A DNA stretch of 64,000 nucleotides from Photorhabdus luminescens subsp. luminescens. Lineage in GTDB: Bacteria > Pseudomonadota > Gammaproteobacteria > Enterobacterales > Enterobacteriaceae. The stretch's first letter is position 1. Each line of letters starts with the position of its first letter. The notes under the pieces were generated by a model that saw only the letters and a list, made by a program, of their open reading frames with translations, had not been told where the DNA came from and did no database searches. A program made the translations under genes and the position numbers. Where the stretch lies: NCBI RefSeq assembly GCF_001083805.1, contig NZ_JXSK01000002.1, positions 248,001 through 312,000 of the forward strand, written 5' to 3'. Positions 17,929 to 40,221 of this stretch are shown here, piece by piece.

Positions 17929-19681
17929 CTGTATCCTCTTTCTTATTAATCACAAATTCGTTTTTATCACCTGCCGCCAAAGCATCTGGCTCCACATTCA
18001 TGATGCGTAGAGCACCCCCCATAATGGCACCAAATACCGGCGCAGAAACCACACCACCGTAATACTTACCTGTCAGTGGATCATTAATGACCACAACCAG
18101 TGCAAATCTTGGGTTACTTGCAGGGGCAACACCTGCGGCGTAAGAAATATATCGATTAGCGTATTTACCATCCGGCCCAACTTTCTTAGCTGTACCCGTC
18201 TTGATTGCAATCCGATAACCTTTTATCGCAGCCCGCACTCCGCCACCGCCAGGCAAAGCCACACTTTCCATCATATGAACGACTGTTCGCATGATAGGCT
18301 CAGGAAATACTCTTGTGCCTGGCACAGGCGGATCAACTTTGGTAATTGACAGAGGACGATAAATACCCAAGCTACCAATCGTTGCATAAACCCGCGCTAA
18401 CTGTAATGGTGTTACCATCAGCCCATAACCGTAAGAAAAGGTCGCTCTCTCAAGATCTGACCACCGTTGTTTTCCGATTGGATATAAGCCGCTGCTTTCT
18501 CCAACCAACCCCAGATTGGTCGCCTTTCCTAACCCAAAGCGTGAATAAACATCCACCAATTCTGTCGCGGGCATTGCTAACGCTAGTTTAGAAACACCGA
18601 CGTTACTCGATTTTTGCAAAATACCAGTGATAGATAATTCTGAATAACGGGATACATCTCTAATTTCTTTGCCGCTTATCCTAAAAGGTACTGTATTAAT
18701 AACCGTATTTTCTTTGATAATACCATCATTGAGCGCAGCCATTACCACCATCGGCTTAACCGTGGAACCTGGCTCGAAAATATCGGTGATAGCTCGGTTA
18801 CGCATCACTTCTTTTGGCGTATTGATGCGATTATTTGGGTTATAAGATGGGCTGTTCGCCATTGCCAGCACTTCTCCGGTATTAACATCTACCAATACTG
18901 CCGTACCGGATTCTGCTTTGTTAAAGGCCACTGCATTGGTTAATTCGCGGTAAACTAACGCCTGTAAACGCTCATCAATACTTAATACCAAATTGTGCGC
19001 CGCCAGACTATCAACAGATGAAATATCTTCGATAACACGGCCAAAGCGGTCTTTACGTACAGTCCGCTCGCCCGGTTGACCCGTCAGCCAACGATCAAAA
19101 CTTTTTTCTACACCTTCAATACCCTGACCATCAACGTTGGTCACGCCAATAATATGTGCCGTTACCTGACCTGACGGGTAATAACGCCGGGATTCCTGGC
19201 GCAAATAAATCCCCGGCAATTTCAGTTTATGAATGTAATCGCCAACCGATGGGTTAACTTGACGCGCTAAATAAACAAAACGGCCTTTCGGATTAGTACT
19301 AACTTTGTCGGTAAGTTGCTCAAGAGGTAAATTAATGGCATCAGATAAAGCCTTCCAGCGAGTATCATCCGTAATTCCGCCTTTTTCAAATACCTCTTTC
19401 GGATCTGCCCAAACAGCATTGACTGGAACGCTGACAGCCAGAGGTCGCCCCATACGGTCACTGATCATACCGCGAGCGGTAGGGATTGATTGCACACGCA
19501 GAGAACGTAAATCACCTTCTTTAACCAGTTTATCCGGGTTGATGACCTGCAAATAAGTCACTCTCAGCAATAAGCCAATTAAAGCCACGGCAATCCCCCC
19601 GCACAACAAAGCAAAACGCCAGCTAACAAAACTGGCTTTATCTTCTTGGCGTTTTAATTTCACGGAGCGTGCTGCTTTCAT
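17915..19681 (-). CDS. ftsI: Septal transpeptidase FtsI (PBP3)
   Basis: FtsI is the class B penicillin-binding protein that crosslinks septal peptidoglycan with FtsW. The 588-residue product has a basic cytoplasmic start, one membrane anchor near residues 24-44 ([19 protein letters not shown]), the dimerisation segment [16 protein letters not shown], and the three transpeptidase motifs in order: STVK (in [12 protein letters not shown]), SSN ([12 protein letters not shown]) and KTGT ([13 protein letters not shown]). It follows ftsL by 27 nt and overlaps murE. Confidence 0.98.
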
Positions 19682-35426: not shown

Positions 35427-36032
35427 ATGATGGAAAAGCTTATTCAACATACCGGCTTGGTTGCTCCTTTAGATGCTGCAAACGTCGATACTGATGCCAT
35501 TATTCCCAAGCAATTCTTGCAGAAAGTCACTCGTACAGGATTTGGTCAGCATCTGTTTCATGATTGGCGTTTTCTTGATGATGAAGGACAAAAACCTAAT
35601 CCTGAATTCGTATTAAATCAGCCTTGTTATCAGGGCGCTAGTATCCTTCTGGCTCGTGAAAACTTTGGTTGCGGTTCCTCCCGTGAACATGCGCCTTGGG
35701 CATTAACAGATTATGGTTTTAAAGTGGTTATCGCCCCAAGTTTTGCGGATATTTTCTACGGTAACGCTTTCAACAACCAGTTACTGCCAGTAAAACTGAA
35801 CGATAAAGATGTCAATGAGCTATTTGAGTTGGTTCAGCAAAACAAAGCTTGTCGTTTTACTGTCGATCTAGAACAACAGAAAGTCCACGCTGGCAATAAA
35901 AGCTATGATTTCGAAATCGATAGTTTCCGGCGTCACTGTATGATGAATGGTCTGGACAGCATCGGCCTGACATTACAACATCTGGACGCCATAACAGCCT
36001 ACGAGCAGGAACAACCGGTTTTCCTGCGTTAA
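35427..36032 (+). CDS. leuD: 3-isopropylmalate dehydratase small subunit LeuD
   Basis: LeuD is the swivel-domain subunit that completes the LeuC active site. The 201-residue product equals the enteric length and has [32 protein letters not shown] and [16 protein letters not shown]. An AAGGAGAGA site precedes two consecutive ATG codons; the first gives the family length. Confidence 0.97.
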
Positions 36033-36050
36033 TTTTTCCTTTATTAACTT

Positions 36051-36075
36051 ATCCCGTAGTTTTCTACTACGGGAT
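36051..36075 (+). terminator. Rho-independent terminator of leuABCD
   Basis: ATCCCGTAGT and ACTACGGGAT form a perfect 10-bp stem with a 5-base loop, followed by TTTTC, 18 nt after the leuD stop. Confidence 0.9.
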
Positions 36076-36319
36076 TTTTCTATCACAGTGTCAAAGGCAA
36101 GACAATGCCGCCACGTCTATACTCAACACTCATGCAGACAGTCCCTTTTTCAGCCATATATAGTAATTTAACTAACATTTACTCAATCAATATCACATTT
36201 AAAAGAAATTAACAGATGAAACAGCGACAGCGGCTGGACAAAGCGCCACCAATGCCAGATGATTACTCGTTTTAAATTAATATGTAAAAAGAAACAGAGC
36301 GTACATAATGTACAATAAG

Positions 36320-36450
36320 AAAAAAAGCCAGTAAGCTTTCTTACTGGCTGGCAAATCACCATTACTCAAGAAAATTGGGGGAGAAGCCAGATTTCGTCTG
36401 GCCTATTGAGCTACTTTCAATACAGATAATTATCGCTGCAATATAAGAAA
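36320..36450 (-). ncRNA. sgrS: SgrS-like small RNA (5' end not determined)
   Basis: SgrS is an Hfq-dependent small RNA that pairs with ptsG mRNA during glucose-phosphate stress. Upstream of and divergent to sgrR, the minus strand carries TTGAGTAATGGTG (about 36355-36367), one base different from the E. coli SgrS pairing core TGAGTATTGGTG where they overlap. It is followed by a terminator stem GCCAGTAAG/CTTACTGGC (36348-36327) and seven T. A second small stem GCCAGA/TCTGGC lies at 36386-36402. Only about 170 nt separate the terminator from the sgrR start, so the RNA is much shorter than the 227-nt E. coli form. No sgrT-like frame is present. The 5' end given is a guess. Confidence 0.8.
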
Positions 36451-36488
36451 ATAAAAATTGATGAATAATACTCTGGAGTTCCTCTTTT

Positions 36489-38150
36489 ATGCCCAGTTCA
36501 CGTTTACAACAACAATTCATTCGATTATGGCAACACCATCAAGGAAAAGAGGCTGAAACAACGTTACAAGAACTGGCAAATGTACTGCATTGTTCAAAAC
36601 GCCATATCCGTTCACTGCTCAACAACATGCAGAAAGCTGGCTGGTTACAGTGGCAAGCAGAATCCGGCCGGGGGAAACGCTCTCAACTGAATTTCTTACG
36701 TGATGGATGGGAATTTCAGCAACAACGGGCTGAAGAGTTGCTTGAGCAACATAACGTCGAGAAGCTGGTCCAACTGGTTGGTGATAAAGATACAGTCCGC
36801 CATATGGTACTATCCCAGATTGAACGCCGCTTCCGTCAGGGAAAAAACCTACTGCGGATACTCTATTATCGTCCCTTCCCTAATCTTCTACCCGGTTCAC
36901 CGTTACGCCGTTCTGAAATTCATCTGGTCAGGCAGATATTTAATAGCCTAACCCGCATAAATGAGGAAAATGGGGAACCAGAAGCTGACTTAGCTCATCA
37001 TTGGCAACAATTATCCTCAAATCATTGGCGCTTTTATCTACGGCCGGCCATCCATTTTCACCACGGCAGAGAATTACAGATGGCAGACGTCATCGCTTCG
37101 CTACAAAGATTACGCCACCTGCCCCTTTTTTCTCATATTGAAAAAGTCACCACGCCCACACCCTATGTGATTGATATTTTTCTTTCAGAACCCGATCTCT
37201 GGCTCCCTTTATTAATCGGCAGCCCACATGCCATGATCTTGCCTCAAGAGTGGACAAAGTTACCGAACTTCTCTCGTATGCCTGTGGGAACCGGCCCTTA
37301 CCAGGTAATAAAAAACAGTGCTCAGAAACTACAAATTCGTGCCTTTGATAACTACTTTGGCTTTCGGGCGCTGATTGATCAGGTGAATATATGGTTTCTA
37401 CCAGAATTAGCCGAGAAACTGGTTTGTACAACACTGCATCTGGAAAGTGACAGCACAGGTAATAACTCACTAGATAGCAGAATAGAAGAGGGCTGTTATT
37501 TCCTACTACATGACCACCGTTCAACTAAATGTAGAAGAGAAGACGTTCGCCAATGGCTATGTAGCCTGCTAACACCGATAAATCTGCTAGCGCATTGTGA
37601 CCCCTTTTATCAACGCCACTGGTCACCCGCCTATGGTTTATTACTACGCTGGCACCACAGTAAGCTCATATCTGAATTGAACAAACCAGAGGATATTACT
37701 CATCTGACCGTCACGCTTTACCATCAACATCACGAATACCACACAATCAGCCAGATCCTTCAAACCATACTGACTAAATGCGGCGTCGCATTGAAAATTA
37801 ACATTGTGGATTACGACACATGGTTCAATGGCAACGCCGAAAGCGACCTCTGGCTTTCTACCGCCAACTTTTATAATCCTCTGGAATTTTCGCTGTTCGC
37901 GACACTGTACGAAATGCCATTATTGAAAAAGTGCCTTGGTGATAACTTGAATAAAGAAGTATCTCAATGGCGACGACAAGAACTATCCCTTGAAGAATGG
38001 TGCGAAAAAATAATTGATGAGCATTGGCTGCATCCGCTGTTTCACCACTGGCTTGAGTTGCAGGGACAAAGAAGCATGCGCGGAGTCAAAATGAACACCT
38101 TTGGTTGGTTTGATTTCAAATCCGCCTGGTTTAACCCACATGAAGGATAA
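36489..38150 (+). CDS. sgrR: Transcriptional regulator SgrR
   Basis: SgrR activates sgrS when sugar phosphates accumulate. The 553-residue product has an N-terminal winged helix (TTLQELANVLHCSKRHIRSL) and a long solute-binding-protein-like domain starting near LLRILYYRPFPNLLPGSPLR, the SgrR/YbaE family architecture. GGAG lies about 10 nt before the ATG. The pairing with an SgrS-like RNA on the opposite strand supports the call. Confidence 0.93.
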   Translation: MPSSRLQQQFIRLWQHHQGKEAETTLQELANVLHCSKRHIRSLLNNMQKAGWLQWQAESGRGKRSQLNFLRDGWEFQQQRAEELLEQHNVEKLVQLVGDKDTVRHMVLSQIERRFRQGKNLLRILYYRPFPNLLPGSPLRRSEIHLVRQIFNSLTRINEENGEPEADLAHHWQQLSSNHWRFYLRPAIHFHHGRELQMADVIASLQRLRHLPLFSHIEKVTTPTPYVIDIFLSEPDLWLPLLIGSPHAMILPQEWTKLPNFSRMPVGTGPYQVIKNSAQKLQIRAFDNYFGFRALIDQVNIWFLPELAEKLVCTTLHLESDSTGNNSLDSRIEEGCYFLLHDHRSTKCRREDVRQWLCSLLTPINLLAHCDPFYQRHWSPAYGLLLRWHHSKLISELNKPEDITHLTVTLYHQHHEYHTISQILQTILTKCGVALKINIVDYDTWFNGNAESDLWLSTANFYNPLEFSLFATLYEMPLLKKCLGDNLNKEVSQWRRQELSLEEWCEKIIDEHWLHPLFHHWLELQGQRSMRGVKMNTFGWFDFKSAWFNPHEG

Positions 38151-38201
38151 TTCACAGAAAAGGCCAGAGTTATGAACATACACAGGTACACAAACTCGCT
38201 T

Positions 38202-38692
38202 TTATTCACTTTTTCTGTGGATATCTATGTGAAAAAAGCAGGGGTAATTCAGGTATAGCTTTATATTATGAATTATCAATCTATAAACAAAAAATGAAAT
38301 AGTATTTATTTTTCATTGAAATAGCGGCTATTTACCTCGGTATTTCTAGCGTTAATCACGGCTATAATAGACAACGTTAGTTGATAAGAACAAAAAATAA
38401 CCAAATATCATGTTATCCACAGGTTATGCTTTTTAGTTAAGCAAAAAACAGCGGTTTTTGTAGAAAAAAGTGTGAGTCAAACCTGTAAATCAAACCAGTG
38501 ATCTCATTTTTGTCTACTTATCCCATAAAACTGTGGATAACATGGTGTAAGATCCTGTTCATTATTACCGGCAATAGGTGAACAAGAACGACAGCCAATT
38601 TTACAATATTTGAAACAGCAATAAAAAATGTTTGTATATCATGTTATTATCACTTTTTAGCTATTGTATAAACCTCAGATTTATTATTCACA
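38202..38692. other. Cluster of six DnaA boxes upstream of mutH (candidate DARS2)
   Basis: DnaA boxes (consensus TTWTNCACA) lie at 38202-38210 (TTATTCACT, plus), 38216-38224 (TGTGGATAT, minus), 38228-38236 (TGTGAAAAA, minus), 38413-38421 (TTATCCACA, plus, exact), 38532-38540 (TGTGGATAA, minus, exact) and 38684-38692 (TTATTCACA, plus, exact). The first three are packed in 35 bp, one facing two. An IHF-like TATCAATCTATAA lies at 38274-38286. In E. coli DARS2, which reactivates DnaA by nucleotide exchange, is also next to mutH and contains a three-box core plus extra boxes, IHF and Fis sites. The identification is by position and motif. Confidence 0.65.
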
Positions 38693-38734
38693 GAAACCAA
38701 GGCTGTTTTTTGACCTAAAAAACGGATATCCCAA

Positions 38735-39421
38735 ATGAGCACTCTTTTTTCCCCTCCACCGCCACCAGACAACGAGCAACAATTGCTTGAATGCGCCCAA
38801 CTTCTGGCTGGTCTATCAATGGGAGAACTCGCAGCAAAAGCAAATTTGCCTATCCCACCCAATCTGAAACGAGATAAAGGCTGGGTAGGCATGTTGCTGG
38901 AATATTACCTCGGTGCGAGTGCCGGCAGTAAGCCAGAACAAGATTTTGAACATATCGGCATTGAACTCAAAACTATCCCCGTAGACAGAAGAGGTTATCC
39001 ACTGGAGACAACATTTGTCTGCGTTGCACCATTAACAGGGAACAGTGGTATTACCTGGGAAAGATGCCATGTTAGACGCAAATTATCGCGGGTGCTTTGG
39101 ATACCCGTTGAAGGTGAACGGGAAATTCCTTTAGCCAAACGCCGAGTGGGTTCCCCTTTATTGTGGAGTCCCAATCAAGAAGAAGAAGAGTTACTGCGTC
39201 GCGACTGGGAAGAATTGATGGATTTCATCGTGCTTGGCAAAGTAGAGAGCGTCACCGCCCGTCATGGCGAAGTATTACAGTTACGCCCAAAAGCGGCTAA
39301 CAGCAAAGCATTAACCGAAGCAATTGGAGTACACGGCCAGCCTATTATGACTCTGCCTCGCGGGTTCTATCTGAGGAAAAATTTTACGGCGCCTCTACTA
39401 GCCCGTCATTTCTTAATTTAA
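38735..39421 (+). CDS. mutH: DNA mismatch repair endonuclease MutH
   Basis: MutH nicks the unmethylated strand at hemimethylated GATC sites after activation by MutL. The 228-residue product, near E. coli size, has the catalytic D-x6-E-x-K cluster in [15 protein letters not shown] and the conserved late segments [30 protein letters not shown] and [16 protein letters not shown]. It is followed by the same TerC-family gene as in E. coli. Confidence 0.97.
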
Positions 39422-39513
39422 CGTTGAGCTCTGACTGATTTTTACATTCCCATGCTTACCTTGCATCTAATCACGCGTATAATTAGATTTTTACCTTAAG
39501 GTTTTAATAAGCA

Positions 39514-40221
39514 ATGTTAGAATGGATTGTTGAGCCCCACGCCTGGATGGCACTTGCCACCCTGACAATTCTAGAAATCGTTTTAGGGATTGATAACATT
39601 ATCTTTTTGTCACTTGTTGTGGCAAAACTCCCTAGCCATCAGCAAAATAGAGCACGCAGGATCGGACTAATGGGAGCAATGCTAATGCGCTTAGCGCTGT
39701 TAGCATCCATTGCCTGGGTTATTCGGCTAACCTACCCAATATTAACAGTTTTTGAACATGACATTTCCGCTCGTGACTTAATCCTATTCTTTGGCGGTCT
39801 GTTCCTGATATGGAAAGCCAGCAAAGAAATCCACGAAGCGATCGAAGGTGACAATGAAGGAGAGCTAAAACGTCCTGTTCACTCCTTCATGGGAGCTATC
39901 ATCCAGATTATGTTGCTGGACATTATTTTCAGCCTGGATTCAGTCATTACCGCAGTTGGTCTATCCGATCATCTATTCATTATGATGGCAGCCGTTATCA
40001 TAGCCGTCGGTGTCATGATGCTCGCTGCTCGTCCTATCGGAGAATTCGTTGACCGTCACCCTTCCGTCAAAATGTTAGCGCTGTCATTCTTAATCCTTGT
40101 AGGCTTTACCCTTATTCTGGAAAGCGTACAAGTGCATATCCCTAAAGGTTACATCTATTTTGCTATGTTCTTCTCAATGGCAGTAGAAACGCTGAATCTG
40201 ATGCGTGGGAAAAAGAAATGA
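39514..40221 (+). CDS. ygdQ: TerC-family integral membrane protein (YgdQ)
   Basis: A 235-residue inner-membrane protein with about seven spans and the TerC signatures LEIVLGIDNIIFLSLV near residue 20 and LLDIIFSLDSVITAVG near residue 135, whose acidic residues within membrane helices suggest metal-ion handling. Family members are linked to manganese export or tellurite resistance, but the role of YgdQ itself is not established. It follows mutH as in E. coli. Confidence 0.92.
   Translation: MLEWIVEPHAWMALATLTILEIVLGIDNIIFLSLVVAKLPSHQQNRARRIGLMGAMLMRLALLASIAWVIRLTYPILTVFEHDISARDLILFFGGLFLIWKASKEIHEAIEGDNEGELKRPVHSFMGAIIQIMLLDIIFSLDSVITAVGLSDHLFIMMAAVIIAVGVMMLAARPIGEFVDRHPSVKMLALSFLILVGFTLILESVQVHIPKGYIYFAMFFSMAVETLNLMRGKKK

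Follow-up and report, generated by a model that had tools for sequence, protein, structure and literature searches.

We aimed to determine whether a cluster of DnaA boxes upstream of mutH in Photorhabdus luminescens subsp. luminescens represents DARS2, the locus that in E. coli sets the rate of ADP-DnaA recharging, and so the time of chromosome copying (PMC4245941, PMC5742627; these and the other papers cited are represented here by the part of their text that was available). The cluster lies in a 64-kb stretch of DNA, hereafter the window (C2:248001-312000), from a 5.46 Mb genome assembled in 16 contigs. As the preliminary description had proposed, the upstream neighbour is sgrR (36489..38150, plus strand; NCBIfam NF010149, 985 bits) and the downstream neighbour is mutH (38735..39421, plus strand; NCBIfam NF003458 and TIGR02248, both above cut-off), with the closest relatives found for MutH being Photorhabdus proteins of 93-98% identity. 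Between the two genes lie 584 bp of non-coding DNA (38151-38734) with a G+C content of 31%, and the interval 36000-39600 contained no Rfam family at gathering score.

Mismatches were counted against the DnaA box consensus TTWTNCACA. Six boxes described earlier were all recovered, at 38202, 38216, 38228, 38413, 38532 and 38684, and the first three are indeed packed in 35 bp (38202-38236) with one facing the other two: box I, TTATTCACT (38202..38210, plus strand, one mismatch), is opposed to box II, ATATCCACA (38216..38224, minus strand, one mismatch), and to box III, TTTTTCACA (38228..38236, minus strand, exact). To the right follow two exact copies of TTATCCACA, one on the plus strand at 38413..38421 and one on the minus strand at 38532..38540, which we take to be boxes IV and VI and whose distances from box I, 211 and 330 bp, equal those in E. 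coli. The site CTTACACCA (38543..38551, minus strand) stands 2 bp from box VI and forms a "double DnaA box" with it, and the position corresponding to E. coli box V (38508..38516, plus strand) has decayed to TTTTGTCTA, with three mismatches. The names of boxes IV-VI, like the places of the E. coli IHF sites IBS1-2 and Fis sites FBS2-3 used below, were assigned from the text of the papers together with the sequence. An additional exact box (38684..38692, plus strand) ends 42 bp before mutH; this position is exact in 9 of 13 Photorhabdus sequences and carries one mismatch in the other four, and the Xenorhabdus locus L014 has a one-mismatch box near the equivalent site. E. coli also has an exact box before mutH, but in the opposite orientation and at a different distance. 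Two one-mismatch sites complete the inventory, a further box at 38459 within the gap and a DnaA-box-like site, TTATGAACA (38170..38178, plus strand), located 32 bp 5' of box I and outside the range originally described. The count of three exact boxes given there needs correction, as four match the consensus exactly and three remain only if TTTTTCACA is left uncounted.

The density of these sites is a local property of the gap (38151-38734). Its four exact boxes compare with a shuffle mean of 0.13, and none of 2000 dinucleotide shuffles reached four; its eight boxes at one mismatch or fewer compare with a mean of 2.7, a count of eight being reached in 6 of 2000 shuffles. The core geometry, a plus-strand box followed by minus-strand boxes at +14 and +26, appeared in none of 2000 gap shuffles and at a single place in the 64-kb window. 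The window as a whole shows no surplus of exact boxes (8 against an expected 9.1); the signal resides in the local cluster. Elsewhere in the window, at 18612-18647, another trio of boxes (one mismatch or fewer) occupies 36 bp without the DARS core geometry.

The E. coli element, which has six DnaA boxes (PMC4585315), was taken from the rppH-mutH gap of K-12 (NC_000913), confirming its place beside mutH; the layout of the DARS core is given in PMC5742627. The K-12 core reads TTATTCACC-TTTTC-TGTGGATAG-AGT-TGTGAAGAA and the Photorhabdus core TTATTCACT-TTTTC-TGTGGATAT-CTA-TGTGAAAAA, with TTATTCAC-N6-TGTGGATA-N4-TGTGAA common to both. In this alignment, which had been suggested as a check, sequence, order, orientation and spacing all agree: as in E. 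coli DARS2, the core gaps are 5 bp (boxes I to II) and 3 bp (II to III) with box I opposed to the other two, and in both genomes the next conserved plus-strand box lies 211 bp and the distal minus-strand box 330 bp from box I. The 33 letters from the distal box onward, CTGTGGATAACATGGTGTAAGATCCTGTTYATT, differ at one position between the window and K-12. Both also have a TTATRAACA box-like site 32 bp 5' of box I (TTATAAACA in E. coli), a copy of CTTACACCA adjoining the +330 minus-strand box, a similar CTGTAAAT...CAGT stretch, and mutH downstream. The two loci differ in the upstream gene, which is sgrR reading toward the element in the window and rppH reading away from it in E. coli, in the decay of the box V and IBS1-2 consensus sequences, and in the extra Photorhabdus box before mutH. 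By blastn (E limit 10), 5374 of 5426 E. coli genomes gave a match, and query coverage stayed below 80% throughout; the five E. coli matches listed (E 8e-6 to 1e-4) consist of two pieces joined over 417 bp and fall under ygdT or a hypothetical protein.

The locus thus shares with DARS2 its intergenic place upstream of mutH, its core and its distal boxes at the fixed +211 and +330 spacings; the consensus box V is not kept, as is likewise the case in some of the species treated in PMC8682772. On the strength of these sequence likenesses, the locus is very probably (roughly 0.95) the Photorhabdus ortholog of DARS2, and the earlier assignment, resting on a core and 211-bp and 330-bp spacings that equal those of E. 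coli K-12, is supported. In PMC8682772, the Figure 8 legend lists Photorhabdus luminescens TTo1 as one of the species with DARS2-homologous sequences, which is the same genus and the same named locus as in the window. DARS2 in Photorhabdus is therefore already known and not new.

To evaluate the breadth of the element, 198 family genomes were searched with the core pattern TTATNCACNNNNNNTGTGGATNNNNNTGTG, using the reversed pattern as control. The core pattern matched in 129 of the 198 genomes and the control in none. No genome among the 69 lacking a match exceeds 2.4 Mb; within that size range, three genomes (1.6, 2.1 and 2.2 Mb) do match. Counted by hand, 111 of the 129 matching genomes have two matches and 18 have one; the pattern is strict (variants in loci L031 and L038 escape it), so that genomes with one match or none may hold a variant site. 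As a side observation, 64 of these 69 unmatched genomes measure less than 1.5 Mb, as if genome reduction costs recharging sites. Among the matches listed, the cores fall into a DARS1-like type, TTATCCAC..., and a DARS2-like type, TTAT[TG]CAC..., and each of the 12 Photorhabdus genomes searched has one of each type.

We then considered every DARS2-type hit from another genome among the matches listed, a set of 70 loci picked on core sequence alone and omitting the window's own. All 70 have mutH downstream, with rppH upstream in 67 and sgrR in three, one of these being Photorhabdus; together with the presence of the window genome's own rppH on a different contig (C4, with mutH on C2, in a draft assembly), this bears out the earlier statement that the element stayed with mutH through rearrangement of the other flank. 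In the same 70 loci, the distal box lies at exactly 330 in 61 and the plus-strand box at 211 in 57, and a box (one mismatch or fewer) at +306, the presumed place of E. coli box V, is found in only 24. Column identities were calculated for 57 ungapped loci (13 of the 70 dropped), which were chosen by spacing, so that this choice itself contributes to the values near 1.0 of boxes IV and VI. A total of 150 columns reach 90% identity or more in these loci; the window agrees at 135 of them and E. coli at 149. The -32 motif has a mean identity of 0.94, the core 0.92 and the presumed FBS2-3 stretch 0.88, and 0.91 is reached to the right of box VI, where the conserved block GATCCTGTTCATT (38551..38563, plus strand) contains GATCCTGTT in 57 of 57 loci. 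The other stretches measured range from 0.47 to 0.69, save +191..+210 (0.81), +316..+329 (0.89) and a left motif (0.83 over -56..-44). This left motif, ATAAYTCACAG in an alignment of 41 sequences and ATAATTCACAG in the window (38147..38157, plus strand), marks the left edge of homology with E. coli, and the sgrR stop codon TAA (38148-38150) falls within it in the alignment, where it is the first conserved motif of the element.

The rearranged flank was followed in a second set of 42 mutH loci. The two sets overlap (L064/L035, L073/L037 and L127/L010, for example, are apparently the same contigs), and their counts are therefore kept unadded. Within the 42 loci, the upstream gene is sgrR in all 12 Photorhabdus loci and rppH in all seven core-bearing loci outside Photorhabdus and the Xenorhabdus type (L031-L035, L037, L038). 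Three of the 42 loci have no core, an Alteromonas locus that does have rppH and two Legionella-type loci that have neither, so that some mutH genes lack the linkage. Among the 20 Xenorhabdus-type loci (L014-L030, L036, L039, L042; L029 is a metagenome-assembled genome named only as Enterobacteriaceae), sgrR is full length in five, split in one (L022, perhaps through a sequencing error) and represented by scraps alone in the other 14. The scraps derive mostly from the last 50 codons, adjoining DARS2; some of the matches are weak (the C-terminal piece of L016 at E 0.61, L026 at E 0.017), and in L025 none of the last 70 sgrR codons was matched. The core and the +330 box are kept in 20 of 20 of these loci while sgrR decays, suggesting that the object selected is the DARS2 element and not the neighbouring gene.

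A further comparison concerned the IHF and Fis sites. E. coli DARS2 is described as having IHF and Fis sites and a length of 455 bp (PMC4245941). An IHF-like site had been noted about 40 bp beyond the core and is present, TATCAATCTATAA at 38274-38286 (plus strand, one mismatch, 37 bp 3' of box III); however, 1006 of 2000 shuffles of that spacer carry at least one such site, which puts it at chance level, and the site by itself is therefore no evidence. The scanned pattern ends in R and the consensus printed in PMC8682772 in A, making the scan slightly looser. A one-mismatch site at this offset (+72) is found in 10 of 13 Photorhabdus. We considered it as a relocated IBS, 21 bp (two helical turns) nearer the core than E. 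coli IBS1, and rejected this, since half of the shuffles hold one. At the presumed offset of E. coli IBS1-2 (38295..38323), placed from two one-mismatch sites 3 bp apart in E. coli, the IHF consensus has decayed in Photorhabdus, the IBS2 position having three mismatches in 13 of 13; across the 57 ungapped family loci, an IHF site (one mismatch or fewer) at +109 is present in only 15. The stretch equivalent to the presumed E. coli FBS2-3 (38482..38501; CCTGTAAATCAAACCAGTGA vs GCTGTAAATGGAAACAGTAG, assigned from the papers' text) has a mean column identity of 0.88 in the 57 loci, and +268..+336 contains no Fis consensus at one mismatch or fewer, E. coli likewise giving none by the same test. The IHF part of the case for DARS2 is thus weak.

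Several other readings of the cluster were weighed. The boxes could mainly serve as an operator for DnaA control of mutH transcription, since they all lie upstream of mutH and the last exact Photorhabdus box ends 42 bp short of its start codon, but we consider this unlikely. In the 70 loci among the matches listed, the MutH alignment begins 510-624 bp beyond box I. Box VI keeps an almost constant distance from box I, whereas conservation is low (mean identity 0.55 in the 57 ungapped loci) over the following 115 bp (+365..+479), which span most of the remaining path to mutH. Promoter-like sites in 38000-38800 number two, against a shuffle mean of 3.1. Somewhat less likely still is a passive site that titrates DnaA with no catalytic effect. 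DnaA ChIP-seq in E. coli places DARS2 with the strongest regions, at coverage ratios of 78, 199 and 213 (PMC11317965), and few parts of the locus are as well conserved as the box pair around box VI, whose full pattern is found in 55 of 70 loci among the matches listed; yet simple titration needs neither a fixed head-to-head core nor a near-fixed 330-bp distance from core to box VI, and ADP release has been measured for E. coli DARS2 (PMC4245941).

That the locus is DARS1 or datA instead of DARS2 is very improbable. The core layout is common to DARS1, which in E. coli also lies upstream of uvrB and has a three-box core, one box facing two, with spacing equal to that in the window (PMC5742627); its regulatory region, however, is far shorter, about 50 bp (PMC5742627), and the mutH-linked locus does not lie upstream of uvrB. 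The window genome has two such cores, this DARS2 and a separate DARS1-type core beside uvrB on contig C4 (G000:C4:88620), which excludes a DARS1 identity, and all 12 Photorhabdus genomes searched have core sequences of two different types. A chance cluster has a negligible probability: the gap is AT-rich and the window as a whole holds no more exact boxes than its shuffles, but no gap shuffle reproduced the four exact boxes or the core geometry, and the arrangement is conserved across genera, so that chance is excluded.

With DARS2 as the preferred reading, the chromosomal position can be compared. In the single-contig Photorhabdus genome G204, the coordinates of dnaA (249), a dif match (2,646,815), DARS1 (1,784,961) and DARS2 (4,341,317) place the two elements on opposite arms, as they also are in E. 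coli. DARS2 lies about 1.36 Mb from dnaA, part-way along one arm (rounded genome size 5.7 Mb), or roughly 45% of the way to the dif match with the arm taken from that rounded size, and 58% of the way in P. thracensis (G198, L009; dnaA 1,891,656, dif match 4,569,989). In P. thracensis, DARS2 (3,439,284; also listed at G198:C1:3439255) and DARS1 (3,529,445) are 90 kb apart on one arm, and short distances were also observed in two further genomes (G145:C1:1437428/1481354, 44 kb; G113:C1:712331/884731, 172 kb); misassembly may account for this close spacing. Among the matches listed, 21 genomes have both elements on one contig of at least 3.4 Mb, and 20 of them space the two by 0.37-0.50 of the circle, G113 being the exception.

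By analogy with E. coli, ADP-DnaA would occupy boxes I and II, which stand head to head in the core, and also box III. IHF and Fis, binding in the 300 bp or so on the right of the core, would bend the DNA and alter this complex. ADP would then leave, and apo-DnaA would be released and take up ATP, the recharged DnaA preparing the next round of initiation at oriC. DnaA is present, as is Fis (99% identical over the 76 aa compared).

Conservation further points to the flanks of the core. A box (one mismatch or fewer) at -32 is found in 63 of the 70 loci among the matches listed and at -31 in five more, and no remaining left-hand offset from -110 to -9 has a box in more than 23 of them. We discarded the notion that this box is a part of the rppH promoter, as it is retained in loci for which no upstream rppH was found (all 13 Photorhabdus; Xenorhabdus type 20 of 20, one at -31). 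In the available text of PMC8682772, PMC4245941, PMC4585315, PMC11317965, PMC5742627 and PMC12371093 we found no reference to a box at this position, and the DnaA-box-like site is possibly new. On the right, three ChIP-seq regions fall at E. coli DARS2, and the entry for the strongest of them gives the pair CTTACACCA-tg-TTATCCACA (PMC11317965), which the window carries letter for letter; a consensus scan gave no support for the right block as a promoter or terminator. Over-initiation in E. coli plasmid tests required neither the right half nor boxes IV-VI (PMC4245941).

The sgrR flank introduces a further element. Transcription through DARS2 is reported to harm its function (PMC5010248), which makes read-through from sgrR worth considering; sgrR reads toward the element, and the consensus scan of 38000-38800 found no terminator-like site. 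An sgrR gene facing the element in this way is possibly new, and read-through into the Photorhabdus DARS2 is conjecture. Exposed to it, DnaA recharging could be modulated by sugar-phosphate signalling. Taken jointly, these points allow a tentative reading, to which we give somewhat less than even odds, in which DARS2 exceeds the published minimal element: the GTTATRAACA site at -32, about three helical turns from box I and kept even where sgrR replaces rppH, and the right block surrounding box VI would both have a function in the native element, and in Photorhabdus and relatives sgrR read-through could tie DnaA recharging to sugar-phosphate signalling.

For the family, the spacing and the tie to mutH were kept while the other flank was rearranged and sgrR decayed up to the edge of the element in many Xenorhabdus, and this outlines a naturally selected element in which conservation highlights two parts, the -32 box and the right block.
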